This document shows, in pieces, positions 204 through 47,553 of a stretch of DNA of 64,000 bases. The translations under genes were made by a program, and so were the position numbers. Origin of the DNA: Marinoscillum furvescens DSM 4134 (GTDB taxonomy: Bacteria; Bacteroidota; Bacteroidia; Cytophagales; Cyclobacteriaceae); the NCBI RefSeq assembly GCF_003386095.1, contig NZ_QREG01000010.1, forward strand, positions 25,499 through 89,498, given 5' to 3'. Within the stretch, counting starts at the first letter, position 1, and each line of letters begins with the position of its first letter. The notes under the pieces are model-generated. The model did no database searches and was not told where the DNA came from. It worked only from the letters and a program-made list of their open reading frames with translations.

Positions 204-219
204 TATCCTGCACGTACCT
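204..219 (-). promoter_or_regulatory. Putative shared operator, copy 1
   Basis: Read toward the gene starting at 108, the site is AGGTACGTGCAGGATA. It matches the element found before six other units in this window, with two AGG-type half sites spaced 10 bp. It is followed directly by AACTTCG, resembling the sequence after the copy at 45230-45245. The binding protein is not known. Confidence 0.6.
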
Positions 220-295
220 GAACGGCCATATCCAGTTGAAGTAATAATACATACTCGGATGGCAGGCTAGCTCCAGTTTGTACCACTGAGAAGAA

Positions 296-1018
296 CTAAT
301 TCACTTTAATTCTTACATTTCTGTATTCAATTTTCATTGGAGGGCCGACATGTACCTGAACCCCAAGAAAGCCCCCTGTAGATCTGTTTTCGTCATCATC
401 ATCTATGATCACACACATAAGCTGCCCATTTATTAGATGAGAAATTGTGTTGCCCCTGACCAGAATATGGTATTCATTCCAATCGTTAGATTTGATGAGT
501 TTTGACAGGTCTGTTTTATCGCCCGAGGAACCGATTTCTAGTGGTTTTGACTTTTCTGATATTTGAGTAACCTGCCCTCTTAAAGCGAGAAATGTACGCC
601 CTCTTTCTTCATAGTTTTGGCCCGTCCATTGGTTAGCTCCATCAATGTCCGCCTGATACCCTTTTAGCGCGTAGGGCTTGTTAGCAACCTTTTGACTATG
701 ATAATTGATTCCGCTATTGCCATTTGGTGATATTCTAAACTCAGCCTTTAATTCCAGGTTACCTACAAGTGAGTCTTTATATATCAAAAAGGAATTTTCT
801 TCAAGAAGGTTGTCTTCGGTGACGATACCAACAATACAGCTATCTTGAACGGACCAATATTCTGGATCCCCAAACCAGCCTTGCAACGAGTATCCATTAA
901 AGATCTGCTTGAAGCCTTCCTCGCTATCTGCTCGCACTGGAAATTGTGCGCTTGACAGGAATAATAAGTGGCAGAATAAAAGACTCAACAGTGTTTTAAT
1001 ACAGATGGATTTGGTCAT
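296..1018 (-). CDS. Secreted DUF1080 / 3-keto-disaccharide hydrolase domain protein
   Basis: This 240-residue protein has an N-terminal signal peptide (about residues 1-30) followed by a single concanavalin-like jelly-roll domain of the DUF1080 (3-keto-disaccharide hydrolase) type. Family marks are FNGYSLQGW near residue 41, the NSGINYHSQ segment, YQADIDGANQWTG, and the closing IEYRNVRIKVN. Members bind or hydrolyse sugars outside the cytoplasm, and several are auxiliary to glycan degradation; the exact reaction here cannot be told. It is the last complete gene of the long minus-strand operon, 184 bp after the sulfatase, so it may also have its own promoter. Confidence 0.8.
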   Translation of the reverse strand: MTKSICIKTLLSLLFCHLLFLSSAQFPVRADSEEGFKQIFNGYSLQGWFGDPEYWSVQDSCIVGIVTEDNLLEENSFLIYKDSLVGNLELKAEFRISPNGNSGINYHSQKVANKPYALKGYQADIDGANQWTGQNYEERGRTFLALRGQVTQISEKSKPLEIGSSGDKTDLSKLIKSNDWNEYHILVRGNTISHLINGQLMCVIIDDDDENRSTGGFLGVQVHVGPPMKIEYRNVRIKVN

Positions 1019-1202
1019 ACTCTTATGTTTATATGGTCGATCAGGTGGCTACAAGACGCTGAGGCGAACGGCCTATTTTACCTTTGTTGGGTAGTTGTAC
1101 ATTTATATTACTTCAGTTCGTTTCATACTGATTTACATGATTGGTTAGATGTTTAAGGGGAGCATTTTTTGTTTCCCTTTTTTATGAACTGATTATTGCA
1201 TT

Positions 1203-2688: not shown

Positions 2689-3003
2689 TTATTTTAAGTA
2701 AAAAACTTCTGTCAGCTCCTGAGCTATTGGGCTATTGTCTTCGTTTGTTTCCATAATATCCGCCATGTACTCCCACCAATCACGACAAACTGTTGTGTTT
2801 GCTATGTTTTTCCAACGCTCCTCACATTCGATATTGACATACCCGAACAATGTATTGGTGTCTTCATCATAAAATATGCTGTAATCGTGTGCACCCTGCT
2901 CTTTTAATGTGATTTCAAGCGTTTCCCAAATAGGGTTGTGACGATTGGTATACTCCTCCAGGGCCCCCGGATGTAATTTCATTTTAAAGGCTTTTCTTAT
3001 CAT
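2689..3003 (-). CDS. rhaM: L-rhamnose mutarotase
   Basis: This 104-residue cytoplasmic protein matches the length and full pattern of the RhaM/YiiL family. It starts MIRKAFKMKLHPGALEEY, has RHNPIW with the conserved Tyr and His of the active pocket, a central DYSIFYDEDTNTLFGYV, and the WWEYMADIM motif near the C-terminus. The family interconverts alpha- and beta-L-rhamnose so that it can enter isomerisation. Its position inside a sulfatase/glycosidase operon is direct evidence that L-rhamnose is a breakdown product of the target glycan. It lies 27 bp after the CBM9-like/PKD protein gene. Confidence 0.95.
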   Translation of the reverse strand: MIRKAFKMKLHPGALEEYTNRHNPIWETLEITLKEQGAHDYSIFYDEDTNTLFGYVNIECEERWKNIANTTVCRDWWEYMADIMETNEDNSPIAQELTEVFYLK

Positions 3004-5881: not shown

Positions 5882-5884
5882 GAG

Positions 5885-7969
5885 TTATTTCTTTTGTCTG
5901 TCCAGTAGATAGTAAATGTTGTTGGCCACTCCAGCAGGCATAATCATCATTCCTCCATAATTTCCGGTGACGCTATTGTGCGTGTCAGGGTAGGCATATT
6001 CGTACTCACCGTTCAGATATCGCTCATAAGTTTCAGGCAAGTTGTGTGGCAACCATTTTCTTTCGGCGCTTACATTGAGCCAACGGATAATAGCATGTGT
6101 GATCCCTTTTTGATATTTGATCCAGTCTATTTCAGGGTCAATTTCATCCCATTTCAAATTGTTGCTGGCAACATCTGAAAATACAGCCAGTACTTCCCAT
6201 TGGACATGATCCCGCACCCAATTTGCGAAATACCAATCGCTGGAACTGAGTACAGGTTTGGTGTTGTATAACATCTCTATATTTTTTGGCTCCCACAGAT
6301 GGGTAAATACCAGAAGAGTTCTCATCCAGTAAATAGCCTTATTTTTATACTTTTCGTCATTGAATTGTTCGTACGCTAAGTAATTGCCAACTGCTGCATG
6401 GCCTGCTGCCAACAGGTTGGCAGCATGTAGTGGGGTTTCCCAAAAGTCTCCAGCTTCCGGGCGTCTCATTTCCAGACAGAAATCAAAGGCTTTTCTGGCT
6501 GCATCTAAAAAACGCTTATCACCTGTAGCTGTACCAATCTTCAACAAGGTAGTGGCTGGTCTGATGGTTATATCCAGAGCAGTTTCTCCTCTAAGCCCCA
6601 TGGGCTCTATAAATGAGGTTGCTACTTTAAAGTCGTCCTTTCCAATGTCATTGGGGTTAAAAGGGAAGGATCCATCTTCGTTTTGCTCGGAGAGAAGGGC
6701 TTCACCTCTTTTGATTTGGTCATCCTGGCTGTTTCTTTCATTGTTGATTTGATTTTTGGACCATTTTAATTTTGTTTTCAGCTCTTTGGCTAAAGGTGTC
6801 CTCTTGTTTTCGCTTACATACCGCTCCAGAAAACTCGGGACATTTGGTTTGATAGTTTTTTCGGGACGTTGGATCAGGCCAAAACCTTTACCCTCATGCC
6901 AAAAGTTGGTGTTGTAAGCATTGGCAATTCTGTCGAGGGTTTCTTTGTATGACCACCGGAGGGCCGATGGTTCAGGTAAGCCTTGTCTTTTGACATAATC
7001 GACCATCACATCTACACTGTTGCCTTCGGTGAGCCAAATCTCAGCATCGAAATTGATCATTTGACCAATTTTTAGTTCTAAGGGAATTTGAGCGTATATT
7101 TCGTTTTCATGTCCCTCAATGGATGCATCTGGCACCATAAGGCCCATTAGGTGATTGCTTTTGCGATCGACAAAGTTAGGAGAGGCGAAAACGGGCTGAG
7201 GGTTGTGCTCTCGGTAATTGAACCAGCGCGTAGCGGTCTGATTTGGGTTCCAGGATAAGCCAATGCCATAGCCCTGATGACTGATCGCCATGAGTGGAAC
7301 GGAGACTTTATTGGGATGAGGGGCTACTCTCATAGCCCATGGGTCTTTAAAAAAGTCCGTTCCGCTTGTCCACTCATCGCCTATCGCCCAATCTACACCA
7401 GGAAGGATAGCGTCTTCCTTAGTAGAACCAAATGAAGATTCCCCCACCTTTAGCCATGGCCCTCGGATGTAGCGAACGTTATAATTCCCTGAGGCAACTA
7501 GTTCATAACTGGCTTTGATCACTGGGGAATCATTTTTTAGGGTGAAACTCACACGCCCGGTAAGCACGGGCTCGGTGAATGGGTAAACCATCCAATTGTC
7601 AAATGAAGTCCCGTCCAGAACATCCCGTACTACCACCGATTGCACTTCGAAGGTCAACGTTTTACCATCGACAGATTGACTTTTTTCATAGGATTTAGCT
7701 ACCAGCCGCATGGGGATATCCTGATCATGTAACATGACCTCCCCGAGATGTTCTATGATCGCCATCAACTTCCCCGAAGGTGTCAAAAGTTCTCCCCAAC
7801 CCCAACCAAGGTATCTTTGGTAGAGATTCAGTGTCAGTGTGCTGTTTTCTAAGGAGACTGACTTTCCTGCATAGCTAGATTTTTTAAAAATGGGCTCCTG
7901 GGCTTGAGAAACAAGTGCCTGGGTAAATAAGGCCACTAATAAGAATATGTTTTTCTTTATTGAGTGCAT
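5885..7969 (-). CDS. Unclassified secreted protein with beta-sandwich and alpha/alpha-toroid-like region
   Basis: The start is taken at MHSIKKNIFLLVALF, which gives a signal peptide ending VSQAQ; an ATG four codons earlier is less convincing. The protein is about 694 residues. The first half looks beta-rich (GWGWGELLTPSGK, RYIRGPWLKVGE, GIGLSWNPNQTATRWF). The second half is helical with repeated hairpins (RRPEAGDFWETPLHAANLLA, DWYFANWVRDHVQWEVLAVF), as in six-hairpin glycosidases and several polysaccharide lyases. I do not recognise the family. Its place between a GH71/99 enzyme and the decayed remnant, plus export, suggests a glycoside hydrolase or lyase, but that is inference. Acidic and aromatic residues in the helical half are the best active-site candidates. 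Confidence 0.6.
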   Translation of the reverse strand: MHSIKKNIFLLVALFTQALVSQAQEPIFKKSSYAGKSVSLENSTLTLNLYQRYLGWGWGELLTPSGKLMAIIEHLGEVMLHDQDIPMRLVAKSYEKSQSVDGKTLTFEVQSVVVRDVLDGTSFDNWMVYPFTEPVLTGRVSFTLKNDSPVIKASYELVASGNYNVRYIRGPWLKVGESSFGSTKEDAILPGVDWAIGDEWTSGTDFFKDPWAMRVAPHPNKVSVPLMAISHQGYGIGLSWNPNQTATRWFNYREHNPQPVFASPNFVDRKSNHLMGLMVPDASIEGHENEIYAQIPLELKIGQMINFDAEIWLTEGNSVDVMVDYVKRQGLPEPSALRWSYKETLDRIANAYNTNFWHEGKGFGLIQRPEKTIKPNVPSFLERYVSENKRTPLAKELKTKLKWSKNQINNERNSQDDQIKRGEALLSEQNEDGSFPFNPNDIGKDDFKVATSFIEPMGLRGETALDITIRPATTLLKIGTATGDKRFLDAARKAFDFCLEMRRPEAGDFWETPLHAANLLAAGHAAVGNYLAYEQFNDEKYKNKAIYWMRTLLVFTHLWEPKNIEMLYNTKPVLSSSDWYFANWVRDHVQWEVLAVFSDVASNNLKWDEIDPEIDWIKYQKGITHAIIRWLNVSAERKWLPHNLPETYERYLNGEYEYAYPDTHNSVTGNYGGMMIMPAGVANNIYYLLDRQKK

Positions 7970-8019
7970 TGCTAGAGACAATTTGTTTTTGAAGGCGACT
8001 AATGTGGCCCAACTGCTAA

Positions 8020-8393
8020 TTAATGCAGGCTATTTCTAATAACCATCCCGTAGATTCCCGGTTGGGAAAAGCGTAAAAGCATTGAGACGATATTTTTCCA
8101 TTCTCTCATTGCACACACAAACTCTGCATTATTTCGTTGCGCATCCCAATGATTTGTATCGTGATACGCAAACTGTTCTGCCGATTCTGGGTTGAGGTCA
8201 TCGAAGACTCCTTGCACCAATTGGGAGTTGATAGGCAATCCTTCTATTTTATAGCTTTTCCAGTTCCTGCCTTCATAGGTTGGTTTGCCATTGATAAGAA
8301 ATTGTTTTCCCTTAATGCTCACTTTTGATTGGGCAGAGAGGTGCATCCAGGGATGTGATAGAAGGGTTAAAATGATGCAATTTTTTTCATCAT
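8020..8393 (-). pseudogene. Decayed N-terminal remnant of a putative glycan-degrading enzyme
   Basis: A signal-peptide-like start, MMKKIASF, at 8393 runs into a stop, and coding sense continues in another frame. There the segment KVSIKGKQFLINGKPTYEGRN...LVQGVFDDLNP...WDAQRNNAEFVCAMREWKN is well conserved with the N-terminus of a family of uncharacterised putative glycosidases. After EWKN the frame breaks again. The family-like continuation (YRLNAFTLFPTGNLRDGY) is readable in a different frame and then hits a stop at about 8036. Two frame breaks and loss of the rest of the gene make this a relic, probably left by deletion. Recognition of the family is from memory and needs a search. Confidence 0.6.
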
Positions 8394-16386: not shown

Positions 16387-16455
16387 CTATGTAGGTATTA
16401 TTCTTAAACTGTTTTTTTGATATGAAGTAAAAATGGCGGATCTAAATAGTTTTCG

Positions 16456-16471
16456 CATCCCGTACCTACCT
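16456..16471 (-). promoter_or_regulatory. Putative shared operator, copy 2
   Basis: In the direction of the 1282-aa enzyme gene it reads AGGTAGGTACGGGATG, ending 69 bp before the start codon. It agrees with the SusC-facing copy at 13 of 16 positions. It has the same half-site spacing and is followed by a similar A-rich segment (CGAAAAC). Confidence 0.6.
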
Positions 16472-16752
16472 AACAGGAGTTTAAGCACGAATAGGAGAAG
16501 TTTTGGTCAAGGGGATAAGATCTGCCCACAAATAGAAGTAAGAACCCTTATCTGAAACGCAAGAATTTGATGCGTCTAAGTCGCACTGGTGATAACTTGA
16601 TTGGCGTGTTTATTAGTAATCTTTTGATAAATAATAGCCAATTGATTTTATTTCAATTTATGACGCTATCAATTCAACCTGCTGTTTGGTGATAATTATT
16701 TCAATAAACAGAAGTAAAACCGTGTATATTTATAATTATGTCATCATCCGGC

Positions 16753-16768
16753 AGGTAGGGGCAGGATG
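16753..16768 (+). promoter_or_regulatory. Putative shared operator, copy 3
   Basis: AGGTAGGGGCAGGATG lies 103 bp before the first SusC gene and is followed by AAAACGTTTG, a possible -7 region. The 10-bp direct repeat (AGGTAG/AGGATG) is most visible in this copy. Confidence 0.65.
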
Positions 16769-16871
16769 AAAACGTTTGGGCCCTTCACTAGAATTAAGCT
16801 TGATTTTAACCCGGGCAATTGGCTGGGTGTCTCAAAGATGTACTATTAACTACCAACTTAAATTTTAAATC

Positions 16872-19991: not shown

Positions 19992-20011
19992 TCAGTCTAA
20001 AGAGAAATAAA

Positions 20012-32252: not shown

Positions 32253-32298
32253 ATGCTAAAAAAGTAAGTCACAACTTATTTGTTCATACATTTATTTC

Positions 32299-32314
32299 CA
32301 CCCTGTAGGTTCAT
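32299..32314 (-). promoter_or_regulatory. Weak candidate copy of the shared operator
   Basis: Toward the sulfatase pair the site reads ATGAACCTACAGGGTG, agreeing with the consensus AGGTAGGTGCAGGATG at 10 of 16 positions. The right position (47 bp upstream) makes it worth listing, but chance is not excluded. Confidence 0.25.
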
Positions 32315-32470
32315 GGCCAAAACGTGCTTTTACCCATAAGGCGCACAAAAAAGAACATGTAGTTATAACACATTAAACCTGATGTTTTTAAACTGGAGTT
32401 TATTGATGTGATCATGAAGCATGATTCTAACTCCTATATTGATGTAATGCATTAATTGGTTTAGTTACTT

Positions 32471-34210: not shown

Positions 34211-34245
34211 TGGATTTTTCTTTTTAGAAGCAATGGAGTCTATTA

Positions 34246-37200
34246 TTATTGACGGGTTTTCGAGATGCTTTTTATCGAAACTGGCCCTAAAAGCCCCGCA
34301 CTTGGCGGTTCTTCATTGGGTTTGATATCATCGACTATGTGCCAGGAGTACCTTTCATTTTCAGGAAGCATTTTGTCCTTGATGAGTCTGTTTCTCCAAA
34401 GGTTAGCCACTTTCACCACTAGTTCGTTTTTTCCTTGTTTCAGCTGATTTGTGACATCTAGTTGAAAAGGGTAAATCCAGGTCGTACCAACCTCTTGTCC
34501 ATTGAGTGTCACGGTCCCCATGACAGATACCTGTCCCAAATCAATCATGTAGATCTGGTTTGGACTGATCTCACCCATTTCGAAAGTGGTGGAGTAGTTG
34601 GCGGTCCCTGAGTAAAACTTTATCGCATCTGAATCAGATTGGTTCCAATCGCTCAGTGTATTGAAAGTGACAGGGCCTTTTGGTCCTATGTCTTTGTTTA
34701 AAAAGTCTACTTCCCAGCTGCCTTCTATACTTGTAGTAATTTGAGCTTCGGGGAAGTTTGAGTCATATTTAGAGTCGAGATCAGTTTCAGAAAATACGAT
34801 GTAAAAGCTCTGGTCTTTTTCAAAAGATAATGGAACTGTGGTGTACCCATCGGTTTCTTTAAAAACTGGCAATGCTCGTATCTCACCTGTTACTGCATCC
34901 CATAGCTGCGGCTTCATTCCTTGTACATTAAACGATGGAGATATGTTTAGAACATCATCGCTTTGATTGGTAATGAAATAGATGTCGCCATTGTCCGCTT
35001 CTCTATGTGTCCAGAGTATTTTGTAGTCGCCATCCAGCTTCAAGTCGCGTTTCAGGTCAATTTTTTCGAGTGCTTCTTTTAAGCTCATATTGTCGATGAC
35101 ATGACCTTCGCCAAATGATCTGAAAAGTGGCTGATCAGTTTGTTCTCCCCACAATTCAGCAGCCATGGTCTGCACTTGAGCGTCAGATTCCGGGTAGTTT
35201 TCCAGGCTAGGGGAGGTAGTAGGTGGTGCTCCGTAGATGTTTGCGCCAGCTTGTACAAGCGATTTTATTTTCTCCAATACTGATGGACGCATATTGTCTA
35301 CAGGTGGCAAGACGAGCAGTCCATAAGACATGCCATCAGGGAAAGTGAGTCTTCCATTTTTTACAGTAACCCGGTTTAGGAGTACTTCAGCATTTAGATA
35401 ATCGTAAGAATATCCCTGGGGCAATTCCGGATTGCGAGTACCAGTCATGATAGGTGTGTTTTCACCAATAAAGTAAGCAACATCTGCACTGTATTGTCCT
35501 TGTGTAAGCATGTGCTGGTTTCTTCTAAGGTAGGTCATCCATGCTTTCGATTGCTCAAACCACGTATTGTGACGGTTAAACTCGGTGCTAAACCAGGCGT
35601 TTACACCAGGCTTTCTATTGTCATCAGGTTGGTGAATGTAGAGGTGTAGCACAAAGTGATTAATACCTTCTGTGAAGCTCCAGTCTCCACGTTTTTTCAG
35701 AAGCGCAGGGTGCCTTAGGTAGGATTGGTAAGCTGCGGTGAAAGCCTCTGCCGACACCCTGGGTTTGCCATAAATATGAGCCGCAGAAGATGCAGCCTTA
35801 CATTCAATATCACCAAGCGTTCCTTCATTCCAGAACTCACCGCTGACCAGGTCAGACTGCCCACCATACATCAAAAACTCGGATGGGAAACCCCAGTGAC
35901 CATAGTTTTCCAGCCACATTTGAAGGTTGTGTTCGTTGCTCACCTTACGTAAACCTCCCACATACTCGTAGGCCACCTCGTCAGCTACTAACCTTCTCAC
36001 ATCCCACAGAAATCTATCTGAAGCATCTACACTCTGAACGATACGCCCGGAATATGTAGGTAAAAATGGTTTAGGATCGTAACTGTATTTGTCTTGAAAT
36101 TTTTGCTGGAAATCATCACTCCAGTTTTGAGATCCCATTTCGTAGCTATCTGCAATCACATATTTAAAGGCAGACTTGCTTTCTTCAGGAAGACGCTTTA
36201 GAAATTCTCCTACAAACTGATCGAAATGAAAGCGAACGAGTTCTTCGCTCATCTTATCTATTTCGTATCCTTTTCCTTGTGGTGCTGCCGGTGCATTTTT
36301 TGTTCCTGTTGGGGTCATTCCATATCGTTGGATTGTCCATTCTCCTTCCGGTGCATCCCAGATTAGATTACCATCAGCATCCATTTTGTCACTCAGATCG
36401 ATAACCTCTTTAGAGGAGATACTTAAATCATTTTGAACTACATCTGGTTGGGTGTCCCACAGGTAGCTTACAAAGGATGGGAATGGAGTGGGGTGGAGTT
36501 TTGCCAAACTTTTTTCGGCGTAACTGTCAAGTCCGGCAGCCTCAGAAATGATGATCTCGGACAATTGCCACTTATCTACTTTGGCATTTGGATAGGTATT
36601 TGACTTGAAAGTTCCTCCCAGAGCTTGAAATGCTAACCTGAAATTTTTCGCATCTGTTTCTGGTATTGCGATATGTACTGGAGCGTATTGATCGGCACCA
36701 ACATTAGGGCTTAGTTTGCTCCGGTCAATGATCAGTGATTTTACTAGGTTGAAAGAATTGTCAACCTCCGCGTAGATATCGCATTTAACCTTGAATGCAT
36801 CTTTAGAAGGTATAATTTTTACGCTTCTAGCTTTTATAGATACTTGGGATTTTATGTCTATTTGAAATTTTTCTACCGACTTTGGAAAGCCAGTGGCCGT
36901 CGAGTTATTTCCGTCAATCAATTTTTCACTGTTACCAACAGATGGCTGGATTCTAATGGTCGAATTGTCAGCAATGAGTCTTTTGCTTTCTGCTGCTATT
37001 GATGGAAATGCCAATACATACGTGTCTTGAAATTCGGCGGTTGGTTTACTCAGTTGGAGTGTGATGTTCCGCCCGCCATTTATTTTAGTTTCTGAGTAGG
37101 TCAGGTAGCGCATAGCCATTTCTGGCTTCACCCACGGCCCACCGGACTGGCTCCACCCGGGACAGTTGAATATCCCGATATCTACTCCGAGCCGCTTGCC

Positions 37201-37527
37201 TTCGACCACCGCATGTACCATGATTTCCCACCATTTTTCACTAAAGAGTGGTACCTTACCATCCTTTTCATCAGGGTTGATATTGCCTATCAGGGCGGCA
37301 CCAATACCTGCCTCCTTCATAGCTTCCAGGTCTTTTGTTAACCCTTCCTTAGATATGTCATCTCCAATCCAGTAGTAATAGCACCAGGGTTTTACACTGT
37401 CAGCAGGTGTTTGAAAGCCGTCCCTTAAGGTATTGTAATTAAGTCCAATTCCCTGACTTCCTGGTTTTTCGCAGGAGGTAGCGAAAATTGTTATTAGGCA
37501 TGCAACGAAGAGTTTTAATTTTTTCAT
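34246..37527 (-). CDS. GH106-like alpha-L-rhamnosidase lipoprotein
   Basis: This 1093-residue lipoprotein has a lipobox FATSC (Cys19). The N-terminal barrel shows GH106 marks: DSVKPWCYYYWIGDDISKEG, AMKEAGIGAALIGNINPDE, and IGIFNCPGWSQSGGPWVKPE. The middle part has ADSYEMGSQNWSD and MWLENYGHWGFPSEFLMYGGQSD. A jelly-roll with glycosidase-family-2-like sugar-binding sequence closes it (MGTVTLNGQEVGTTWIYPFQ). GH106 enzymes hydrolyse alpha-L-rhamnosides with inversion and need calcium; the Glu residues in SYEMG and LENYG are plausible active-site residues but not proven. The gene sits 7 bp after the sulfatase at 37535 and 35 bp before the GH78-like gene. Confidence 0.9.
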   Translation of the reverse strand: MKKLKLFVACLITIFATSCEKPGSQGIGLNYNTLRDGFQTPADSVKPWCYYYWIGDDISKEGLTKDLEAMKEAGIGAALIGNINPDEKDGKVPLFSEKWWEIMVHAVVEGKRLGVDIGIFNCPGWSQSGGPWVKPEMAMRYLTYSETKINGGRNITLQLSKPTAEFQDTYVLAFPSIAAESKRLIADNSTIRIQPSVGNSEKLIDGNNSTATGFPKSVEKFQIDIKSQVSIKARSVKIIPSKDAFKVKCDIYAEVDNSFNLVKSLIIDRSKLSPNVGADQYAPVHIAIPETDAKNFRLAFQALGGTFKSNTYPNAKVDKWQLSEIIISEAAGLDSYAEKSLAKLHPTPFPSFVSYLWDTQPDVVQNDLSISSKEVIDLSDKMDADGNLIWDAPEGEWTIQRYGMTPTGTKNAPAAPQGKGYEIDKMSEELVRFHFDQFVGEFLKRLPEESKSAFKYVIADSYEMGSQNWSDDFQQKFQDKYSYDPKPFLPTYSGRIVQSVDASDRFLWDVRRLVADEVAYEYVGGLRKVSNEHNLQMWLENYGHWGFPSEFLMYGGQSDLVSGEFWNEGTLGDIECKAASSAAHIYGKPRVSAEAFTAAYQSYLRHPALLKKRGDWSFTEGINHFVLHLYIHQPDDNRKPGVNAWFSTEFNRHNTWFEQSKAWMTYLRRNQHMLTQGQYSADVAYFIGENTPIMTGTRNPELPQGYSYDYLNAEVLLNRVTVKNGRLTFPDGMSYGLLVLPPVDNMRPSVLEKIKSLVQAGANIYGAPPTTSPSLENYPESDAQVQTMAAELWGEQTDQPLFRSFGEGHVIDNMSLKEALEKIDLKRDLKLDGDYKILWTHREADNGDIYFITNQSDDVLNISPSFNVQGMKPQLWDAVTGEIRALPVFKETDGYTTVPLSFEKDQSFYIVFSETDLDSKYDSNFPEAQITTSIEGSWEVDFLNKDIGPKGPVTFNTLSDWNQSDSDAIKFYSGTANYSTTFEMGEISPNQIYMIDLGQVSVMGTVTLNGQEVGTTWIYPFQLDVTNQLKQGKNELVVKVANLWRNRLIKDKMLPENERYSWHIVDDIKPNEEPPSAGLLGPVSIKSISKTRQ

Positions 37528-37534
37528 ATTATGG

Positions 37535-38944: not shown

Positions 38945-38971
38945 TAAAATATCCTATCAAAAAATGATACT

Positions 38972-38987
38972 CATCCTGCACCTTACT
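38972..38987 (-). promoter_or_regulatory. Putative shared operator, copy 4
   Basis: Toward the sulfatase/rhamnosidase operon it reads AGTAAGGTGCAGGATG, 27 bp before the start codon. The 3-prime half GGTGCAGGATG is identical to the copy before the aldolase gene. Confidence 0.6.
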
Positions 38988-39051
38988 GAGGTGGGAGTTA
39001 ATAAGTGCAATCAGACCTATCAGAATTCTGGTTTGGACGAAATAGTGGTTC

Positions 39052-39067
39052 ATGTAGGAACGGGATG
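39052..39067 (+). promoter_or_regulatory. Putative shared operator, copy 5
   Basis: ATGTAGGAACGGGATG lies 51 bp before the sulfatase at 39119. It agrees with copy 2 at 14 of 16 positions, including the CGGGATG variant half site. Copies 4 and 5 serve the two divergent units of this 174-bp intergenic region. Confidence 0.55.
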
Positions 39068-39118
39068 CCGGAGCAATTGAGATTATTTAAACTTGAACCT
39101 GACTAGTATACCTAGATT

Positions 39119-40594
39119 ATGAAACAAACTTTATTGCCACTTCTTTTCAGCGCACTGCTACTATCCAGTTGTATTCCGGAACAAAGTGTCAGTCGCCCGC
39201 CTAACTTGTTGATTGTTCTCTCGGATCAACACTCGTACGACATGCTTGGATGCTACGGGAATGATCAGGTTAAAACACCTAACCTCGACAAGTTTGCGGG
39301 AGAAGGGTTAAGGTTCGACAATTGTTTCAGCAATCAACCTGTTTGTACCCCATTTCGTGGGATGCTTTTAAGTGGTATGCACCCACTAAAGAACGGTGCT
39401 TTTGTGAATGATGTACCTTTGATTCCTCAGCCAAGCCTTCTGGGGAACGTGTTAAAGTCACAAGGTTATCAAACAGCATACATTGGGAAGTGGCATCTTT
39501 TAGGGGGCGATCGCAAACGCCCTATTCCCGATGGCGAATTACGGTACGGGTTTGATAAGGTCTTGACCAACAATTGTCACGTGGATTTCCGACCAGGGAA
39601 ATGCTTTTTTTGGAATGAAAAAGGTGAACGGGAGTATTTTGATGAATGGGAGGTTTATGGGCAAACCAGGCAGGCATTGCAATATCTGGATGAAGTTGAT
39701 AAAGAAAAGCCGTTTGCCCTGATTGTGTCTTGGCACCCTCCGCATGACTGGGGTAAGTTCAAAGGTGTGGACGGTAAAATGCATTATCGGTACGAGACTA
39801 TGAGTGAGTTTATGGCTCTCTATAATAAGGATTCTATTGAATTGAGACCGGGAATTGAGGTCACACCCGATCGAAAGACGATGTATCATGGTTATATGGC
39901 AATGGTCAGTGGTGTGGATGAGGCATTTGGCATGTTGATGGATAAATTAGAAGAGTTGGGGTTGGAAGAAAATACATTGACCGTTTTTTCAGCTGACCAT
40001 GGGGATATGTTGGAGTCACACGAGGCTGTTTTACCAAAACAATATATCCATGATTACTCAACTCGTATTCCTTTTTTGATGAGGTATCCTGAAAAAATAA
40101 AAAGTGGCGACTCCACATCACTCCTTATGAGTACCATCAATATGCTGCCAACATTTCTCGGGATGATGGGCATTGAAACATCATTTGAATACGATGGGAC
40201 AGACCTTTCACAGTCCATTTTGGAAGGGGATGAGGATGCCGTTGAGTCGATTCCGGTGTGGGTCTATCAGCGGGCTAAACATTCCAAGGTACCTAACTGG
40301 AGAGGGATTATCACCAAAGACTACTCATTTGCAATGACTGAAAACATGTCTGAAGAATCAATAGGGAATGTATTGTTTGATAGGAAAAATGATCCGAATC
40401 AACTAGAGAACCTAATTAATACGCCAGGGAATGCGGCAATTCAGAAGCAATTTGAAGTGCTTACAAGAAAATGGATGAGTGAATTTTCTGATGATTTTTA
40501 TAATGCTGAAGATTTCAGGGCAGCTACTCCGGAGGGTGACTGGGCCGGGAATTATACCACGCCACCATTGGAACTTTTAAAAATCAATGAATAA
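39119..40594 (+). CDS. Family S1 sulfatase lipoprotein
   Basis: This 491-residue protein has a lipobox LLLSSC (Cys18). It begins PNLLIVLSDQHSYDMLGCYGN; the formylglycine residue is Cys76 in CTPFR; SADHGDMLESHEAVLPKQYIH forms the second metal-site region. The Asp-Gln pair and CTPFR motif are the same as in the sulfatase at 30777, but the two differ elsewhere, so they are relatives rather than copies. It is divergent from the rhamnosidase operon and followed 18 bp later by the 873-aa sulfatase, with which it forms a two-gene operon under operator copy 5. Target sulfate position unknown. Confidence 0.94.
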   Translation: MKQTLLPLLFSALLLSSCIPEQSVSRPPNLLIVLSDQHSYDMLGCYGNDQVKTPNLDKFAGEGLRFDNCFSNQPVCTPFRGMLLSGMHPLKNGAFVNDVPLIPQPSLLGNVLKSQGYQTAYIGKWHLLGGDRKRPIPDGELRYGFDKVLTNNCHVDFRPGKCFFWNEKGEREYFDEWEVYGQTRQALQYLDEVDKEKPFALIVSWHPPHDWGKFKGVDGKMHYRYETMSEFMALYNKDSIELRPGIEVTPDRKTMYHGYMAMVSGVDEAFGMLMDKLEELGLEENTLTVFSADHGDMLESHEAVLPKQYIHDYSTRIPFLMRYPEKIKSGDSTSLLMSTINMLPTFLGMMGIETSFEYDGTDLSQSILEGDEDAVESIPVWVYQRAKHSKVPNWRGIITKDYSFAMTENMSEESIGNVLFDRKNDPNQLENLINTPGNAAIQKQFEVLTRKWMSEFSDDFYNAEDFRAATPEGDWAGNYTTPPLELLKINE

Positions 40595-40612
40595 AGGTAA
40601 TATCGTTGTTTT

Positions 40613-43234
40613 ATGATGAGGGTAAGAAGGGGGTTAGTCCTTGTTCTGTTTTTTATGAACCTGGTGGCATCTTCCCAGGAAGAACGCAAGAATGTTATTT
40701 TCATTTTGGCCGATGACCTGGGGTGGAGAGACCTGAGTTCGTATGGATCGGATTTTTACCAGACACCCAATATAGACGCACTTGCTGCCTCGGGTGTTAA
40801 GTTTACGGATGCGTACTCTGCAAACCCACTTTGTTCTCCGACTCGCGCCAGTATTTTGACAGGACAAACCTCTGGTAGATTGAGATTCACAAGTGCTTCC
40901 GGGCATATTGAGCAGGAAATACTCGATCCTGTGGCCACCAGCACAGCATCTCCCGAAAAAAAGAACGGAACAGTTCAATCCAGATCCAGACTTCCTCTTG
41001 AGTATATAACATTTGCCGAAGTACTGAAAGGTAGTGGTTACAGGACTGCCTTCATGGGTAAATGGCATCTTGGTAAAGCTCCTTACATTCCCGAAAATCA
41101 AGGATTTGATGTTGTGGTTGGTGGAAGGGAGCACTCTGGCCCTCCAGGCCCCAATAATTACTTTGGGCCATGGAATTTAAGTACGCTACCTATGGTGCCT
41201 CAAGGAACACACATTGCCGAAGCACTTACCGATGAGGCTATTGATTTTATAGACGAAACCACAGACCCTTTCCTTCTTTGTCTATGGTACTATGACGTTC
41301 ATGCACCCTTTCAAGCAAAGGATGATGTTAAGCAGAAGTATGAGGCTAAGCTTAACAAGAATCATATTCAACGATCTCCTACCATGGCTGCCATGATTGA
41401 GGTTATGGACGAGAACATAGGGAGACTGCTAGATCATTTGGAAGATCGAAATCTCGATGAAAATACCATTGTGATTTTCACAAGTGACAATGGAGGGCAT
41501 ATGTATAATCTGGTAGACAATACCAATCCCACGAATAATGCTCCCTTGAGATCTGGAAAAGGGAATAATTATGAGGGCGGAGTGAGAGTACCTATGATTG
41601 TTCGTGCGCCCGGGATTTCAAAACCAGGAACGGTTTCCGAAGTGGTTACCCAAAGCGTGGATCACTACCCCACCATGTTAGACCTGTTGGACATAGATTT
41701 CCCAAATCAGGTTACAGATGGAGAAAGTTATGTCAATGCTTTAAAGGGACAGTATTATGAGCGTTCACCTATTTTTTCTGTGTACACTCATGACGTGCCT
41801 GCAGTGGCTAACAGGTATAATACCTCTGTGAGAAAGGGGGATTGGAAACTTTTGAAATTTTATCATGACGGACCGAATCGGGAACATAGATATGAGTTAT
41901 ACAACCTTGCAGACGATATAGGAGAGACTACCAATCTTTCTGAGCAAATGGTTGAGAAGACACAAGAACTGGCAGCACTTATTGAGACGTATGAAGAGGA
42001 TATAGACATGCTGAAGCCACAGCCGAACGATAATTTTGTCGGAAACTCTGAAGCAGCCTGGTTTTCAACATGGGATACTGAACTATCGCTGACTGACGAC
42101 AACACTCTAAAACTAGTGTCAGAAGGGAACACACCTTATGTAGAAACGAACCATGTGCCCAACTATAAAGGAGGTAGCCTGAAAATGGCTTTTGATATGA
42201 GATCCAGTAGCAATGGAAATGGTAGGTTTTTATGGAAAACCTCTGCTTCAAATACGTTCGACTCTTTTGTGAGTTTTACAGGAAAGCATGATGGAAACTG
42301 GCAATCAGTGACTGTAGATTTTACTCTGGGTAATACAGAAACACTTCGGGGATTGAGAATTCAGTCATCATCCGGAGAAGGAGAGATAGAATTGAGAAAT
42401 ATTCGATTGCTCTCTCAAAGTGAAGAGGAATTGAGAACCTGGGAGCTTGACTCAAAGGGCGTTATTGCGGGGCTGAGTGAAAATAACGCTCCTGCTATTT
42501 GTACGCCGCAGCTCGAATGGGACTTTGAGCGTGATGCCAGCTGCTGGAATCTTGAAAAACACCTTTCAGGCGAGGTTGAGGATGGTGCTTTGGTAGCCAG
42601 TGTTTTAGGAATTGACCCGATATTGACCCTTAGAGGAGGGCTAAATGTTCCATCGCTTTACTACTCCGAAATGCGAATTAGGATGAAAAATGCATCAAGT
42701 GCTTCTAACGGAGCTATTTACTTTAGAACAAGCGAAAATCCTTCTTTCGTGGGAAACTTTGTACTGTTTACTTTAACAGCAAATGACGATCAATTTCAGG
42801 ACTTCATCGTAGATATGTCTGAGCACGCGAACTGGGGTGGAACAGTAGAAGGTATTCGCATAGATCCTCAACAACCCGGAGCAAGTCATGGAAGCGTTGA
42901 AATTAGCTACATCGGTTTTGTTAGGAATGACGTGGCGGAACCAGAAGATCCTGTTTTGACCAATGCAGAGGTTTCAGGAAGCAATTCGTTTAGCATCTTT
43001 CCCAATCCAACATCCTCAGGAAAAGTGGATATACAGCTAGGGTCGGCAAAGTATAAAAATAGCATGCTTGTTTTTATGTCATTGGATGGGAAGACCCTGT
43101 TGATAGAGAAGAACAACAGTCAAAGTGTGAATAACATACGTACGGATGTATCTTCATTTGATCCTGGAGTTTATCTTGTTCAGCTTGTATGTGATGGTAA
43201 AATTGTTTCCTCATTAAGGTTGATCAAGAGGTAA
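40613..43234 (+). CDS. Large T9SS-exported family S1 sulfatase with two C-terminal beta modules
   Basis: This 873-residue protein has a signal peptide (cleavage near ASSQ) and no lipobox. The catalytic part (about 25-465) starts NVIFILADDLGWRDL, has formylglycine Cys74 in CSPTR and FTSDNGGHMYN. Residues about 480-600 are a jelly-roll module homologous to that of the sulfatase at 10681. A second beta module (about 625-780, LEWDFERDASCWNLEKHL) follows. The last 80 residues are a T9SS type A sorting domain (IFPNPTSSGKVDIQL ... GVYLVQLVCDGK). Unlike the lipoprotein sulfatases it should be exported across the outer membrane to the surface or medium, and so could act on the intact polymer. Confidence 0.93.
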   Translation: MMRVRRGLVLVLFFMNLVASSQEERKNVIFILADDLGWRDLSSYGSDFYQTPNIDALAASGVKFTDAYSANPLCSPTRASILTGQTSGRLRFTSASGHIEQEILDPVATSTASPEKKNGTVQSRSRLPLEYITFAEVLKGSGYRTAFMGKWHLGKAPYIPENQGFDVVVGGREHSGPPGPNNYFGPWNLSTLPMVPQGTHIAEALTDEAIDFIDETTDPFLLCLWYYDVHAPFQAKDDVKQKYEAKLNKNHIQRSPTMAAMIEVMDENIGRLLDHLEDRNLDENTIVIFTSDNGGHMYNLVDNTNPTNNAPLRSGKGNNYEGGVRVPMIVRAPGISKPGTVSEVVTQSVDHYPTMLDLLDIDFPNQVTDGESYVNALKGQYYERSPIFSVYTHDVPAVANRYNTSVRKGDWKLLKFYHDGPNREHRYELYNLADDIGETTNLSEQMVEKTQELAALIETYEEDIDMLKPQPNDNFVGNSEAAWFSTWDTELSLTDDNTLKLVSEGNTPYVETNHVPNYKGGSLKMAFDMRSSSNGNGRFLWKTSASNTFDSFVSFTGKHDGNWQSVTVDFTLGNTETLRGLRIQSSSGEGEIELRNIRLLSQSEEELRTWELDSKGVIAGLSENNAPAICTPQLEWDFERDASCWNLEKHLSGEVEDGALVASVLGIDPILTLRGGLNVPSLYYSEMRIRMKNASSASNGAIYFRTSENPSFVGNFVLFTLTANDDQFQDFIVDMSEHANWGGTVEGIRIDPQQPGASHGSVEISYIGFVRNDVAEPEDPVLTNAEVSGSNSFSIFPNPTSSGKVDIQLGSAKYKNSMLVFMSLDGKTLLIEKNNSQSVNNIRTDVSSFDPGVYLVQLVCDGKIVSSLRLIKR

Positions 43235-43467: not shown

Positions 43468-45147
43468 TTATAAACCGGTTGAGGTTTTACTCTCTTTATA
43501 TAGGTTGACAAAAGGTGTGTCCCGAGCTTCTTCGGCTGCAATGTAATCTGGGTTTTCACTTGGCCAATAGCGTCTGTCCACGTTTTCTTCCAGCCAATTG
43601 ATAAGCTTATCGAATAACTTGTCGGTCATTTCTGGATTGGCTTTAGCTAAATCATTTTTCTCAAATGGATCTAATGCAATGTTGTACAGGTGTAGCCTTC
43701 CGTACCAATCAAAGATGAGTTTGAAATCACCATCTCTGATAGCCGAATGAGGGGTGAGCGGGAGTCCATCGTAAGGGCTATTATATATCACGTTGAAAGG
43801 ATAGTGCCAGTACCGGGTGGTCTTAGCGTATGCTCCTGCGTATTTATCGGAAATCAAAGGTAGCAGGCTTTGTCCATCAAGTTTTTGTTGTTTTATGAGT
43901 TGCTTTTCATCTAAGCCTCCTGCAGAGGCTAAAGTTGGGAAGATATCGGTGCAGTCCACTACTTCATCTACCCATCTACCTTCCTGAAATTGGCCTTTCC
44001 ATCTAAAAATAAGAGGAACTCTTATGCCTCCTTCAGTAACGCATGCTTTACCTCCGAAGAATGGTGCGTTATCTGTTCCATCACCTTTTGGGGTAATTTT
44101 TCTGTCGATACCGCCATTGTCAGACATAAAGACCACCAGGGTATTCTCAGCTATCCCTTTCTCCTCCAACATATCGAGGATCGCTCCAACGGACATATCA
44201 AGGTGCTTGATCATAGCTGCATAAGTGGCATCTTCATGACCGTTCCACCCCTTACTATCTTTTGATTCAAAATAGTTGATGTCTTCTTTCGGAGCTTGAA
44301 TAGGAGAGTGCACTGCAAAATGTGAAAAGTAGAGAAAAAATGGTTTCTCTTGATTTTCAGTCTGACGGTCTATGTAACTCAAGGCCTGTGCCGTCAAATC
44401 GTCGGTGAGGTAATCTTCTCCCGTTTTTTCTCCAGCATCGCCGAATGCCCACTTGTCCTGTGGCATATTGGGAAAGCGGTTTTTGGATTTGTTATTCCAC
44501 CCATCTCTCCAATCAAAGTAACGACTGCCTCCTGCATCTGCCCAGGCAAGTGCTTCAAACCCATTGTCTCCTGGTTGATACCCCATAGCCCCAAAGCCTC
44601 CGACGTGCCATTTTCCGATAAAAGCCGAATTATAGTCTTTTAAGGCTTCCGCAATGGTTAGCTCATCGAGACCATTGTCCCATTCCGTTCCTGTCGGGAT
44701 TGCTGAATTAGAAATTCCATTCGTTAGGGCTTGTTGAATTTTGATATCGTCTTTGTGTTCTAATACATCATGGGCATAGTACCCCTCTGGAACTTCCATG
44801 TTTTGGTTGTAATAGGTGTCTCTAAATGGCATTGCCGTAGTAAAGCCCAAACGGGCAGCATACTTTCCGGTAAGTATGCTGGCACGCGTTGGTGAGCATA
44901 GTTGGTTTGCATAGGCTTGAGAAAACGATACACCTTCATTCATAAGTCTGTCAATATTTGGTGTTTCGTAAAACATTTTATGATTTTCAATTCCAGTGAA
45001 TTTTTTGGCATAAGCCTGAGTATCCATGATTCCGTAATCGTCTGCCAGAATGAAAATGATGTTGGGTTGGGATATTTGTGGCTTTTTACACGCTGAAAAA
45101 GCAGTTAGTAGAAGAATGGGTAAGGCTGTTCGAAATAATGCTTTCAT
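43468..45147 (-). CDS. Family S1 sulfatase lipoprotein
   Basis: This 559-residue protein has a lipobox AFSAC (Cys20). It begins PNIIFILADDYGIMDTQAYA, carries the formylglycine Cys84 in CSPTR, and has FMSDNGGIDRKITPKGDGTDN as the second metal-site region. The insert before the active site (KKFTGIENHKMFYETPNIDRL) is longer than in the other sulfatases of the window and marks a different subfamily. It is a single-gene unit, convergent with the 873-aa sulfatase, with operator copy 6 upstream. The exact substrate is unknown. Confidence 0.94.
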   Translation of the reverse strand: MKALFRTALPILLLTAFSACKKPQISQPNIIFILADDYGIMDTQAYAKKFTGIENHKMFYETPNIDRLMNEGVSFSQAYANQLCSPTRASILTGKYAARLGFTTAMPFRDTYYNQNMEVPEGYYAHDVLEHKDDIKIQQALTNGISNSAIPTGTEWDNGLDELTIAEALKDYNSAFIGKWHVGGFGAMGYQPGDNGFEALAWADAGGSRYFDWRDGWNNKSKNRFPNMPQDKWAFGDAGEKTGEDYLTDDLTAQALSYIDRQTENQEKPFFLYFSHFAVHSPIQAPKEDINYFESKDSKGWNGHEDATYAAMIKHLDMSVGAILDMLEEKGIAENTLVVFMSDNGGIDRKITPKGDGTDNAPFFGGKACVTEGGIRVPLIFRWKGQFQEGRWVDEVVDCTDIFPTLASAGGLDEKQLIKQQKLDGQSLLPLISDKYAGAYAKTTRYWHYPFNVIYNSPYDGLPLTPHSAIRDGDFKLIFDWYGRLHLYNIALDPFEKNDLAKANPEMTDKLFDKLINWLEENVDRRYWPSENPDYIAAEEARDTPFVNLYKESKTSTGL

Positions 45148-45229
45148 TTTTAAGATAATTGCGTCGTTACTTCATCATGATGAAAAGAATCTATGATCTG
45201 CCGAATGTATCACTTATAAACGAAGTTTG

Positions 45230-45245
45230 CATCCTGCACTATACC
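45230..45245 (-). promoter_or_regulatory. Putative shared operator, copy 6
   Basis: Toward the sulfatase at 45147 the site reads GGTATAGTGCAGGATG, 82 bp before the start codon. The GTGCAGGATG half is perfect; the first half site is degenerate. It is followed by CAAACTTCG, shared with copy 1. Confidence 0.55.
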
Positions 45246-45304
45246 GACTTAAAAAGTATGCTGGGCTCACTTATTGAACGAACTCATCCGCTCCCTTAGG
45301 ACAT

Positions 45305-45336: not shown

Positions 45337-45361
45337 GATTGGCAATTAAGAATTTGTAAAG

Positions 45362-47470
45362 TTATCGAACGAACGCTGCAGCTACTCCACCATCTACATT
45401 AAGAATATTTCCAGTGGATTTACTCAAAGATCCATCAACAAAAACTAGAACAGCTTTTGCAATGTCTTCTCTTTCAAGAATGGCGTTCAAAATAGTTCTT
45501 TTTGCGTAGTGCGCAGGCAGTTCATCTACGGTGATGCCATAAGCTTTGGCACGACCTTCGCCCCATCCGCCTTCCCAGATGTTTGATCCTTTGATCACTG
45601 CATCAGGGTTTACAGTATTTACACGTATACCATCTACACCAAGCTCTGTGGCTAGCAGTCTGGTCATATGAACCTGAGCCGCTTTTGCAGAACCATAACC
45701 AAGGTTGTTTGGGCCGGATACCAGGGCATTTTTGCTCGCAATGTTTACAATATCTCCACCTAGACCTTGTTTTCTCAGGATTTCAGCCCCTTCTTTTGCC
45801 GTCAGGAATGACCCTTTCACCAGAATATTATGGAGTAGATCCCAGTCCTTTTCCTCAGTGTCTTTGAGAGACTTAGAGGTTGCGATTCCAGCATTATTCA
45901 CAATGATGTCTACACCACCAAACGCCAAAGATGCTTTTCTAAAGGCTTCTTTGATAGAGTTTCCTGATGTTACATCCATTACGGCATACTCAGCAGTATC
46001 CCTTTTGAATCCTTTGTGAGCTTCTACAAGCCTTGATTCGTCTATATCCGTCAGCACCACACAAGCACCATTTTCCACCATCAATTTGGCTATTTCCAGA
46101 CCTATGCCGCCACCTGATCCGGATATCAAAGCGACCTTTCTTGAGAGCGATTTCTCTTTGGGCATTCTCTGAAGCTTCGCTTCTTCCAAAAGCCAGTATT
46201 CAATGTCAAATGCTTCTTGAAGTGGAAGTGCGACGTATTCTGATACCGCTTCAGCACCTTTCATTACGTTGATAGCATTCAGGTAAAATTCATTCGCTAC
46301 TCTGGCTGTTTGCTTATTCTTAGCGAAGGAGAACATACCTACCCCAGGCCAAATAATGATTACCGGGTTATTGTCTCTGATTGCCGGAGAGTTGTTGCGT
46401 TTACATGATTCGTAATAGTTGTTGTAATACTCACGGTATTCTATCCACTGGTGCTCAATTTTGGATTTTATTGCTTCTGAGTCTGAGAGGTCAGCATCTT
46501 TAGGCAAGTCAAGAACCAAAGGCCTTATTTTAGTTCTCAGGAAGTGATCAGGACAGCTTGTTCCTAGTGGGGCCAGTTTGTCTATATCAAAGCTATTGGC
46601 AAACTCAAGAATACGCTCATCATCACTGAAATGTCCTACCATCAACTGGTTTGAAGAACACAAACCTCTTAGAATTGGTGCAATGTCTGACGCTTGACTG
46701 GTTCTATCTTCTTTATTGAGGGATTCTGTCCTTTGTCCGCCAAAAACAGGACGATTTTTGCCATAGTTTGCTCCTAGATAAGCAGACGCTTTTTCGACCG
46801 ACTCAAGAGAGTTGATATAGCAATCGTAGGCATTGTCGGCCCATGTGAACAGCCCATGGCCTCCTAAGTAGAGCCCTTTGAGGTTAGGGTTTTTATTGAT
46901 TGCCTCTTCTAGCTGCAAGGAGAGATCGAACCCAGGCTTTTGCCATGGGATCCAAGCAAAATCATCCCCATAAATTTCTTTCATGATTTTCTCACCGTCT
47001 TTAGACGCAGCGATGGCGATAGCGGCATCTGGATGGAGGTGGTCAATGTGCTTGTAGGGAAGCAGGGCATGTAAAGGGGTGTCGATCGACGGGGCTTTGG
47101 AGTTTTGATCGTAGATGCAGTGGTTGAAAAGCTCCACCATCTCATCTTCAAATTCTATGCCTCGGTAGACGTTCTTTAAAGCACGGAGTTTGTCGACGTA
47201 TAGTCCGGCAAGTCCGGCTCTGTCTAGGGTGCCGATATCACCTCCAGACCCTTTGACATACATTATTTCGACTATTTCTCCTGTGAGTGGATCTTTTTCG
47301 TCTACCTTACAGCTTGTGTTTCCTCCACCATAATTGGTTATTCTAAGATCTGTTCCAAGTAGGTTGGATCTATATAGTAAAAGTGCTATCTGATCGTCTC
47401 CTAGTTCTGCCGCTTTTGCTTCATCCCAGAGGTAATCAACGTGATTAAATTTCAAGGTTCTAGATTCCAT
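45362..47470 (-). CDS. rhaEW: Bifunctional L-rhamnulose-1-phosphate aldolase / short-chain dehydrogenase
   Basis: The start is set at MESRTLKFNHVDYLWDE, which matches the family N-terminus, is preceded by AAAGAAAGAG, and leaves operator copy 7 in the leader. A longer frame from 47584 would translate through that site. The protein is 702 residues. The N-terminal class II aldolase/adducin domain (about 1-420) has NTSCKVDE, GSGGDIGT and metal-ligand His residues in PLHALLPYKHIDHLHPDA. The C-terminal SDR domain (about 435-702) has the cofactor motif SGSGGGIG, NNAG and catalytic YGSAK. The family splits rhamnulose-1-phosphate to dihydroxyacetone phosphate and L-lactaldehyde and oxidises the latter. 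No isomerase or kinase gene is in the window. Confidence 0.92.
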   Translation of the reverse strand: MESRTLKFNHVDYLWDEAKAAELGDDQIALLLYRSNLLGTDLRITNYGGGNTSCKVDEKDPLTGEIVEIMYVKGSGGDIGTLDRAGLAGLYVDKLRALKNVYRGIEFEDEMVELFNHCIYDQNSKAPSIDTPLHALLPYKHIDHLHPDAAIAIAASKDGEKIMKEIYGDDFAWIPWQKPGFDLSLQLEEAINKNPNLKGLYLGGHGLFTWADNAYDCYINSLESVEKASAYLGANYGKNRPVFGGQRTESLNKEDRTSQASDIAPILRGLCSSNQLMVGHFSDDERILEFANSFDIDKLAPLGTSCPDHFLRTKIRPLVLDLPKDADLSDSEAIKSKIEHQWIEYREYYNNYYESCKRNNSPAIRDNNPVIIIWPGVGMFSFAKNKQTARVANEFYLNAINVMKGAEAVSEYVALPLQEAFDIEYWLLEEAKLQRMPKEKSLSRKVALISGSGGGIGLEIAKLMVENGACVVLTDIDESRLVEAHKGFKRDTAEYAVMDVTSGNSIKEAFRKASLAFGGVDIIVNNAGIATSKSLKDTEEKDWDLLHNILVKGSFLTAKEGAEILRKQGLGGDIVNIASKNALVSGPNNLGYGSAKAAQVHMTRLLATELGVDGIRVNTVNPDAVIKGSNIWEGGWGEGRAKAYGITVDELPAHYAKRTILNAILEREDIAKAVLVFVDGSLSKSTGNILNVDGGVAAAFVR

Positions 47471-47537
47471 CTCTTTCTTTGCTATGGTAATTGATATTAA
47501 TTCAAGCGATAAAATTGAACAATGCATGACGCATACG

Positions 47538-47553
47538 CATCCTGCACCTTTCT
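47538..47553 (-). promoter_or_regulatory. Putative shared operator, copy 7
   Basis: Toward the aldolase gene it reads AGAAAGGTGCAGGATG, 67 bp before the chosen start. It lies between that gene and the divergent GntR regulator, the usual place for a regulator's own binding site. Confidence 0.6.

Follow-up and report, generated by a model that had tools for sequence, protein, structure and literature searches.

The window analysed here is a 64,000-nucleotide stretch of Marinoscillum furvescens DSM 4134 (C10:25499-89498, C10 being contig NZ_QREG01000010.1; positions without a prefix are window positions), and it carries a predicted polymer-degradation gene cluster in which a short repeated element recurs upstream of many of the genes. 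Two SusC/SusD pairs, eight sulfatases, a GH106 protein, a GH78-type rhamnosidase, a DUF5722 protein, RhaM and RhaEW are encoded in the window, and two GH78 genes and a GH88 gene lie to its left; this gene content suggests that the cluster acts on a sulfated, rhamnose- and uronate-containing polymer such as ulvan. A gene for a predicted GntR-type regulator is divergent from rhaEW.

The preliminary description of this DNA listed seven copies of a 16-bp element, and all seven are present at the positions and in the orientations it gave. Read in gene orientation from left to right they are AGGTACGTGCAGGATA, AGGTAGGTACGGGATG, AGGTAGGGGCAGGATG, AGTAAGGTGCAGGATG, ATGTAGGAACGGGATG, GGTATAGTGCAGGATG and AGAAAGGTGCAGGATG. 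The base directly before the 16-mer is C at six of the seven sites and belongs to the element, which is therefore 17 bp rather than 16 bp long. The 17-bp unit has CAG-type letters at both ends of a 10-bp step, with two CAGG-type half-sites 10 bases apart. The full consensus of 46 intergenic sites from the named relatives, CAGGATAGTACAGGATG, is also a direct repeat with a 10-bp step: its direct-repeat similarity peaks at a shift of 10 (0.72, seven position pairs), which bears out the 10-bp half-site spacing described earlier, whereas the best inverted fit is 0.55 (six pairs), and a palindromic reading was rejected. The half-site recurs at +10 only; the mean match at -21 and -20 is 1.22 and 1.35 of 5, with a background of about 1.2.

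A second conserved block lies exactly 20 bp downstream of the motif at all seven sites and corresponds to the predicted Bacteroidota -7 box (TAnnTTTG). With the seven sites aligned, offset 20 scores 32 of 42 against TAnnTTTG and the runner-up among 50 offsets scores 19; none of 5000 shuffles reaches 32 at any offset. TAnnTTTG is described as the -7 box of the Bacteroidota primary sigma factor (PMC7366714), and mapping reported for Flavobacterium psychrophilum places it at -12 to -5 (PMC9723704); the repeat would therefore extend from about -49 to -33, with its centre near -41. The window's sites, regulator and rhamnose genes are as follows (ORF, open reading frame).

204..220, minus strand: site 1, 17 bp; -7 box 176-183, TAAATTAG; predicted target a 190-aa ORF with its start near 129, together with the genes that follow it to the left of the window
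8044..8060, minus strand: additional site CGGGAATCTACGGGATG, absent from the preliminary list; -7 box 8016-8023, TTAATTAG; predicted target ORF 5885-7981 and, if co-transcribed, rhaM
16456..16472, minus strand: site 2; -7 box 16428-16435, CATTTTTA; upstream of the DUF5722 gene 12538-16386
16752..16768, plus strand: site 3; -7 box 16789-16796, TAGAATTA; upstream of the SusC/SusD gene run 16872-28387
38972..38988, minus strand: site 4; -7 box 38944-38951, TATTTTAG; predicted target the sulfatase, GH106, rhamnosidase and sulfatase run 29263-38944
39051..39067, plus strand: site 5; -7 box 39088-39095, TAAACTTG; upstream of the sulfatases 39119-43234
45230..45246, minus strand: site 6; -7 box 45202-45209, TACATTCG; upstream of the sulfatase 43468-45147
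47538..47554, minus strand: site 7; -7 box 47510-47517, CAATTTTA; upstream of rhaEW (likely start ATG 47470)
47772..48824, plus strand: predicted regulator of the GntR type, divergent from rhaEW; assigned by PF00392, structure model, fold and co-occurrence with the site
45362..47470, minus strand: rhaEW, bifunctional rhamnulose-1-phosphate aldolase / short-chain dehydrogenase; ORF 45362-47584, NF006191 1258 bits (cut-off 1240) and TIGR02632 935 bits (cut-off 568)
2689..3003, minus strand: rhaM, L-rhamnose mutarotase; TIGR02625 above cut-off
34246..37527, minus strand: GH106 alpha-L-rhamnosidase, downstream of site 4; PF17132, 729 bits

The seven copies are real but are not the full set, as a matrix built from them (-7 columns included) finds six more, giving at least 13 in the cluster. 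Of the six, the one with its motif at 8044-8060 (minus strand) is inside the window and the other five are to its left; motif, gap and box together are placed at C10:4137 (minus), 7203 (minus), 7292 (plus), 17471 (minus) and 17660 (plus), and at window position 8016 (minus). All 13 predicted promoters thus consist of the 17-base repeat, a gap of exactly 20 bases and the -7 box. The genes behind the additional sites encode two secreted proteins with CEMIP/G8 domains, a GH78 rhamnosidase, a TIM-barrel/NHL protein, a GH88 glucuronyl hydrolase and the product of ORF 5885-7981, for which there is no Pfam match. With the motif columns alone, all six fall within the top 17 matches of C10:1-120000; at gap 20 they score 5, 4, 6, 4, 5 and 4 of 6 for the -7 box, compared with 3, 2, 1 and 3 of 6 for the four top-17 motif-only matches that were left unaccepted. 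The site at 8044-8060, which the seven-site matrix scores at 16.3, is the weakest member of the 13. Three other matrix matches scoring at least 13 were dropped: window position 1042 plus (15.9) faces no likely gene, C10:6346 plus (13.9) is intragenic, and C10:12970 minus (13.3) has no gene that it could serve. Because the six additional sites were picked using the -7 columns, independent proof of the 20-bp gap comes from the relatives: when intergenic matches there are detected by motif alone, 41 of 46 unique ones have at least four of the six -7 letters at gap 20, compared with 5 of 42 matches in coding sequence.

The fixed box had gone unreported in the preliminary description, and the distances of 27-103 bp to gene starts given there depend on the start calls. 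At site 4 the GTG at 38944 falls inside the predicted -7 box 38944-38951, and the start of the sulfatase (ORF 37535-38944) is therefore more likely the TTG at 38899. Initiation at this TTG would give the protein a lipoprotein-like signal peptide.

The sites are concentrated in this cluster. At a score of at least 14 the seven-site matrix has 14 matches in C10:1-75000 (the seven training sites included), none in C10:75000-120000, and two in 191,263 bp of this genome's other stretches, a control biased if anything against the finding because most of these stretches were chosen for partial matches. A whole-genome pattern scan (motif plus -7 box) gives 11 matches at up to two mismatches, eight of them in C10:4-73 kb, and 83 at up to three mismatches, of which 12 fall in the initial 75 kb of C10, a stretch making up 1.3% of the genome; the backwards pattern, as a control, has 49 genome-wide at up to three mismatches. 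Chance does not account for the sites. The reported absence of the element before the giant genes at 49564-64000 is confirmed at a score of 14, and an Rfam scan of the window at the gathering threshold gave no match. Three of five other genomes of the genus (G002, G003 and G005) have one or two pattern matches at up to one mismatch.

Conservation was examined upstream of rhaEW in 37 other genomes, collected at E-values up to 1e-50 in one search and 1e-200 in the other, with cut-offs for the GntR gene of 1e-15 and 1e-30; the matrix was built from this genome and the named relatives, and a relative's own training site was left out when its stretch was scored. The 40 rhaEW loci (the second copy of this genome, on contig C1, included) split cleanly, with 19 scoring at least 14.3 and 21 scoring at most 6.2. 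The site is kept upstream of rhaEW in 19 of the 37 genomes, and its presence tracks that of the GntR gene: repeat, gap and box occur before rhaEW in 19 genomes that have the GntR gene and in none without it, and are absent from 10 with and eight without (Fisher p = 0.0011, or p = 0.0049 when G012 and G038, both with rhaEW matches of only about 31% identity, are dropped; neither value takes relatedness into account).

A second sample starts from the regulator, and comprises the best 80 of at least 586 loci found with an alignment of 25 GntR sequences. These include Cytophagales, Flavobacteriaceae, Saprospiraceae/Lewinella and Mucilaginibacter, and overlap slightly with the rhaEW genomes (L194 and L195 appear to be G030 and G006). 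When the matrix is built only from the 13 sites of this genome, 57 of the 80 loci have intergenic sites at score 14, and none has the mirrored motif between genes. Nor is the element equally frequent inside coding sequence: there are 89 sites in 153 kb of intergenic DNA and 17 in 1,371 kb of genes, compared with no intergenic and five coding matches for the mirrored motif. A 24-site matrix at score 15 finds an intergenic site in 67 of the 80.

The 116 intergenic sites found with the broader matrix serve rhaEW (44), SusC (18), NCS1-like permease (7), sulfatase (6) and rhaM (2) genes and one each of GH78, GH88, DUF5722 and RhaI; 31 targets are without assignment and four sites are without an ORF. 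A Pfam scan places ten of the 31 as RhaT, fructose-1,6-bisphosphatase, glucuronate isomerase, GH2, GH3, GH31, GH43, DUF4861, a GMC oxidoreductase and an esterase, and in L186 a rhamnulokinase-like gene carries the site. Longer arrays also occur: four CAGGATA-type units in register, in 10-bp steps, precede a SusC-like gene in a Maribacter sp. (L239:13944) and in Zobellia barbeyronii (L249:12107), in both with the promoter-proximal pair at the usual 20-bp gap, and L230 has three units. The fructose-1,6-bisphosphatase gene (L245:7698-8705) and the glucuronate isomerase gene (L209:14124-15524) both carry the site, hinting that gluconeogenesis and uronate use may come under the same control in some relatives.

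The preliminary description had left the regulator unnamed. The product of 47772-48824 matches PF00392 at residues 18-81 (53.7 bits, cut-off 27), with a winged helix at about residues 1-82, and its AlphaFold2 model is of good confidence (predicted local distance difference test score 90.8). The C-terminal domain, at about residues 88-350, is of the LacI/AraR sensor type, and by fold comparison of the model (L162, whose translation contains an X, was left out of the structure alignment) it matches LacI-type sensors over residues 83-350; it is not the aminotransferase-like domain of the MocR proteins. A GntR DNA-binding domain on a LacI-type sugar sensor is thus the best reading of the modelled structure, and the repeat is likely the binding site of this protein. 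The genome encodes a second GntR protein, on C34, with 33% identity to the first, and no site was found at 13.5 in the 19.5 kb surrounding it.

Rhamnose catabolism is only partly drawn into the regulon. A second rhamnose operon on C1 (L174, C1:53000-72500) encodes a RhaEW (66% identity), an isomerase, a rhamnulokinase-like kinase, a lactate dehydrogenase and an NCS1-like permease, and is neighboured by a divergent AraC-type gene, a rhamnogalacturonidase and a LacI-type regulator; at score 13.5 this operon is without a site. Its isomerase is of another type (TIGR02629, 499 bits, below the cut-off of 647), and the genome contains no match to the L-rhamnose isomerase RhaA (PF06134). The expectation that the motif would precede isomerase, kinase and transporter genes is therefore not borne out in this genome, but it is in relatives, where the motif precedes permease, RhaT, rhamnulokinase-like, isomerase and mutarotase genes. 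Because the C1 genes are without the motif, intracellular rhamnose catabolism is represented in the regulon here by rhaEW only, plus rhaM if it is co-transcribed from 8044, and the genome likely has two rhamnose systems under different regulators. The central proposal of the preliminary description, that one regulon joins polymer breakdown to rhamnose catabolism, is supported, and fits the tests run, those of frequency in coding sequence and of conservation upstream of orthologues included.

We favour, with moderate confidence and on sequence grounds, the reading that the direct repeat 20 bases before a -7 box at 13 places is bound by the 47772-48824 GntR protein, which would sense a rhamnose-derived sugar and act as a class II activator. 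The repeat, its constant 20-bp gap, its position between genes, its conservation and its co-occurrence with the GntR gene are evident from the sequences themselves, whereas binding by this protein, activation and a rhamnose-type effector are predictions. A centre at -41 is the classical position of class II activators, as for CRP, and this position together with the constant register favours such a mechanism; the gap is 20 in 41 of the 46 relatives' sites, and if the -7 box lies at -12 to -5, as reported in PMC9723704, the centre falls at -41. The repeat at -49 to -33 would cover the place of the -33 element, so that polymerase carrying the primary sigma factor would depend on the regulator being bound, probably as two subunits arranged head to tail along the same face of the DNA. 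On this view sugar, once released, would jointly induce import across the outer membrane, the sulfatases, the rhamnosidases and the RhaEW encoded in the cluster, with isomerase, kinase and permease supplied by the second operon on C1.

Several observations weigh against this reading. The isomerase, kinase and permease genes of this genome are without the site, and three of the two-mismatch pattern matches lie outside the cluster (two on C20 and one on C25), of which C20:130498 is not within any ORF of at least 100 aa. No intergenic site was found in 23 of the 80 best GntR loci at score 14 with this genome's matrix, or in 13 with the broader 24-site matrix at 15. Some GntR loci have no rhaEW in the stretch examined and have GH2, GH43 or UxaC genes under the site instead, and the effector may therefore not be rhamnose everywhere. 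A general -33 TTTG, searched before 137 intergenic TAnnTTTG boxes, gives no clear peak (2, 1 and 2 at gaps 19, 20 and 21); as the -33 TTTG is weak in the group generally, its absence at these promoters is weak evidence for activation. Finally, the closest architecture with a solved structure, that of AraR, belongs to a repressor whose operator is palindromic.

The main rival, which we regard as unlikely, has the GntR protein bind the repeat but repress, blocking RNA polymerase at -33 until sugar releases it, as for AraR. The architecture equals that of AraR (GntR winged helix plus LacI-type sensor), GntR-type sugar regulators are mostly repressors, and an operator over -49 to -33 could block polymerase. 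However, an operator need not hold an exact register, yet the gap is 20 at those 41 of 46 motif-only sites, before several kinds of gene and in many taxa, and the centre at -41 is that of a class II activator. It is less probable still that another regulator, such as an AraC-type protein or a hybrid two-component sensor, binds the element while the GntR protein controls something else. Bacteroides polymer clusters are often under AraC-type hybrid sensors, and the RhaR of B. thetaiotaomicron is described as AraC-type, although the motifs predicted for AraC-type regulators and hybrid sensors repeat at about 21 bp rather than 10 (PMC3878776, PMC3870299). An AraC-type gene does lie about 12 kb to the right of the window (L033:12185-13042), and 10 of the 29 genomes with both rhaEW and the GntR gene are without a site within 300 bp of rhaEW, the only region tested there, a count that also weighs against the activator reading; but the site tracks the GntR gene across genomes (19 of 19 compared with 0 of 8), and the rhaEW copies adjoining AraC-type genes (L108 and L120) are without it. 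That the element instead belongs to the promoter proper, as a -35-like box read by an alternative sigma factor, would account for the fixed distance to the start signal but is very improbable: the -7 boxes look like those of the primary sigma factor, and the 17-bp tandem repeat, the four-unit arrays in register and the link to the GntR gene fit a dimeric protein's site.

Some other proteins in and around the cluster deserve comment. The two CEMIP/G8 proteins (L031:374-4090 and L032:322-4446) are large and secreted, with G8 and CEMIP beta-helix domains, and both have a site upstream; these domain families are known from animal hyaluronan-binding proteins. The giant secreted protein 57213-60869 has an alginate-lyase-type domain, a CBM6/35, a galactose-binding domain and a type IX secretion system tail; it is without a site, and that end of the window is therefore likely under other regulation. 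Just to the right of the window (L033:2347-7750) is a compact run of DUF4956, DUF2490 and a CotH-kinase protein with a lamin-tail domain.

Among known systems, the 47772-48824 protein resembles AraR of Bacillus subtilis, a repressor released by L-arabinose, in joining a GntR-type DNA-binding domain to a LacI-type sensor. It differs in its operator, predicted by sequence only, which is a 10-bp direct repeat and not a palindrome, in the fixed -41 position, which suggests activation, and in its rhamnose and sulfated-polymer targets; because of this AraR-like build but different predicted site it is not filed as AraR. GntR proteins are reported usually to bind palindromes, direct repeats being known for MocR types and a few others (PMC4494728, PMC5320631). 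The MocR proteins GabR, PdxR and TauR share the GntR DNA-binding domain and direct-repeat sites, and several characterised MocR proteins are activators (PMC5320631), but their sensor is aminotransferase-like and not LacI-like. FucR and ManR of Bacteroides thetaiotaomicron are likewise GntR-family sugar regulators of the Bacteroidota, and the ManR regulon too joins extracellular polymer genes to cytoplasmic sugar genes; as compared by description rather than by sequence or motif, theirs differ in responding to fucose and mannose (PMC3878776). Hybrid two-component polysaccharide regulators also exert local control of SusC/SusD and enzyme genes through direct-repeat sites, but with a spacing of about 21 bp and a membrane sensor (PMC3878776), whereas here the spacing is 10 bp and the predicted sensor soluble. 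The RhaR and RhaS regulators (AraC, DeoR and LacI types) share the control of rhamnose genes but belong to other protein families; the predicted sites of DeoR-type RhaR are similarly imperfect direct repeats of 10–11 bp (PMC3870299). That comparative study of rhamnose regulation puts the number of non-orthologous regulator types at seven or more; only the AraC, LacI and DeoR families are named in its section on regulons, and the term 'GntR' does not occur in its main text (PMC3870299). A literature search limited to open-licence papers found no GntR-type rhamnose regulator.

We conclude that this is a real and conserved regulon, probably that of a GntR-LacI type rhamnose regulator linking the polymer cluster as a whole with part of the rhamnose pathway. 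Whether the same scheme holds across the Bacteroidota we put at an even chance: a soluble GntR-LacI hybrid on a 10-bp direct repeat at -41 would activate primary-sigma promoters in the class II manner, and a single rhamnose sensor in the cytoplasm, rather than a membrane hybrid sensor, would drive whole polymer clusters (here 13 promoters over about 70 kb) together with the RhaEW step, and longer arrays would let more subunits stack before SusC promoters in some lineages. The predicted regulator would add a further type of rhamnose regulator to the AraC, LacI and DeoR types, and the regulon would provide a regulator, binding site and promoter geometry for the sulfated rhamnose-polymer clusters of Bacteroidota from the environment, most of the rules known so far having been worked out in gut Bacteroides. 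The exactly placed -41 repeat with its recognisable -7 box could also serve as a rhamnose-inducible switch in the phylum.

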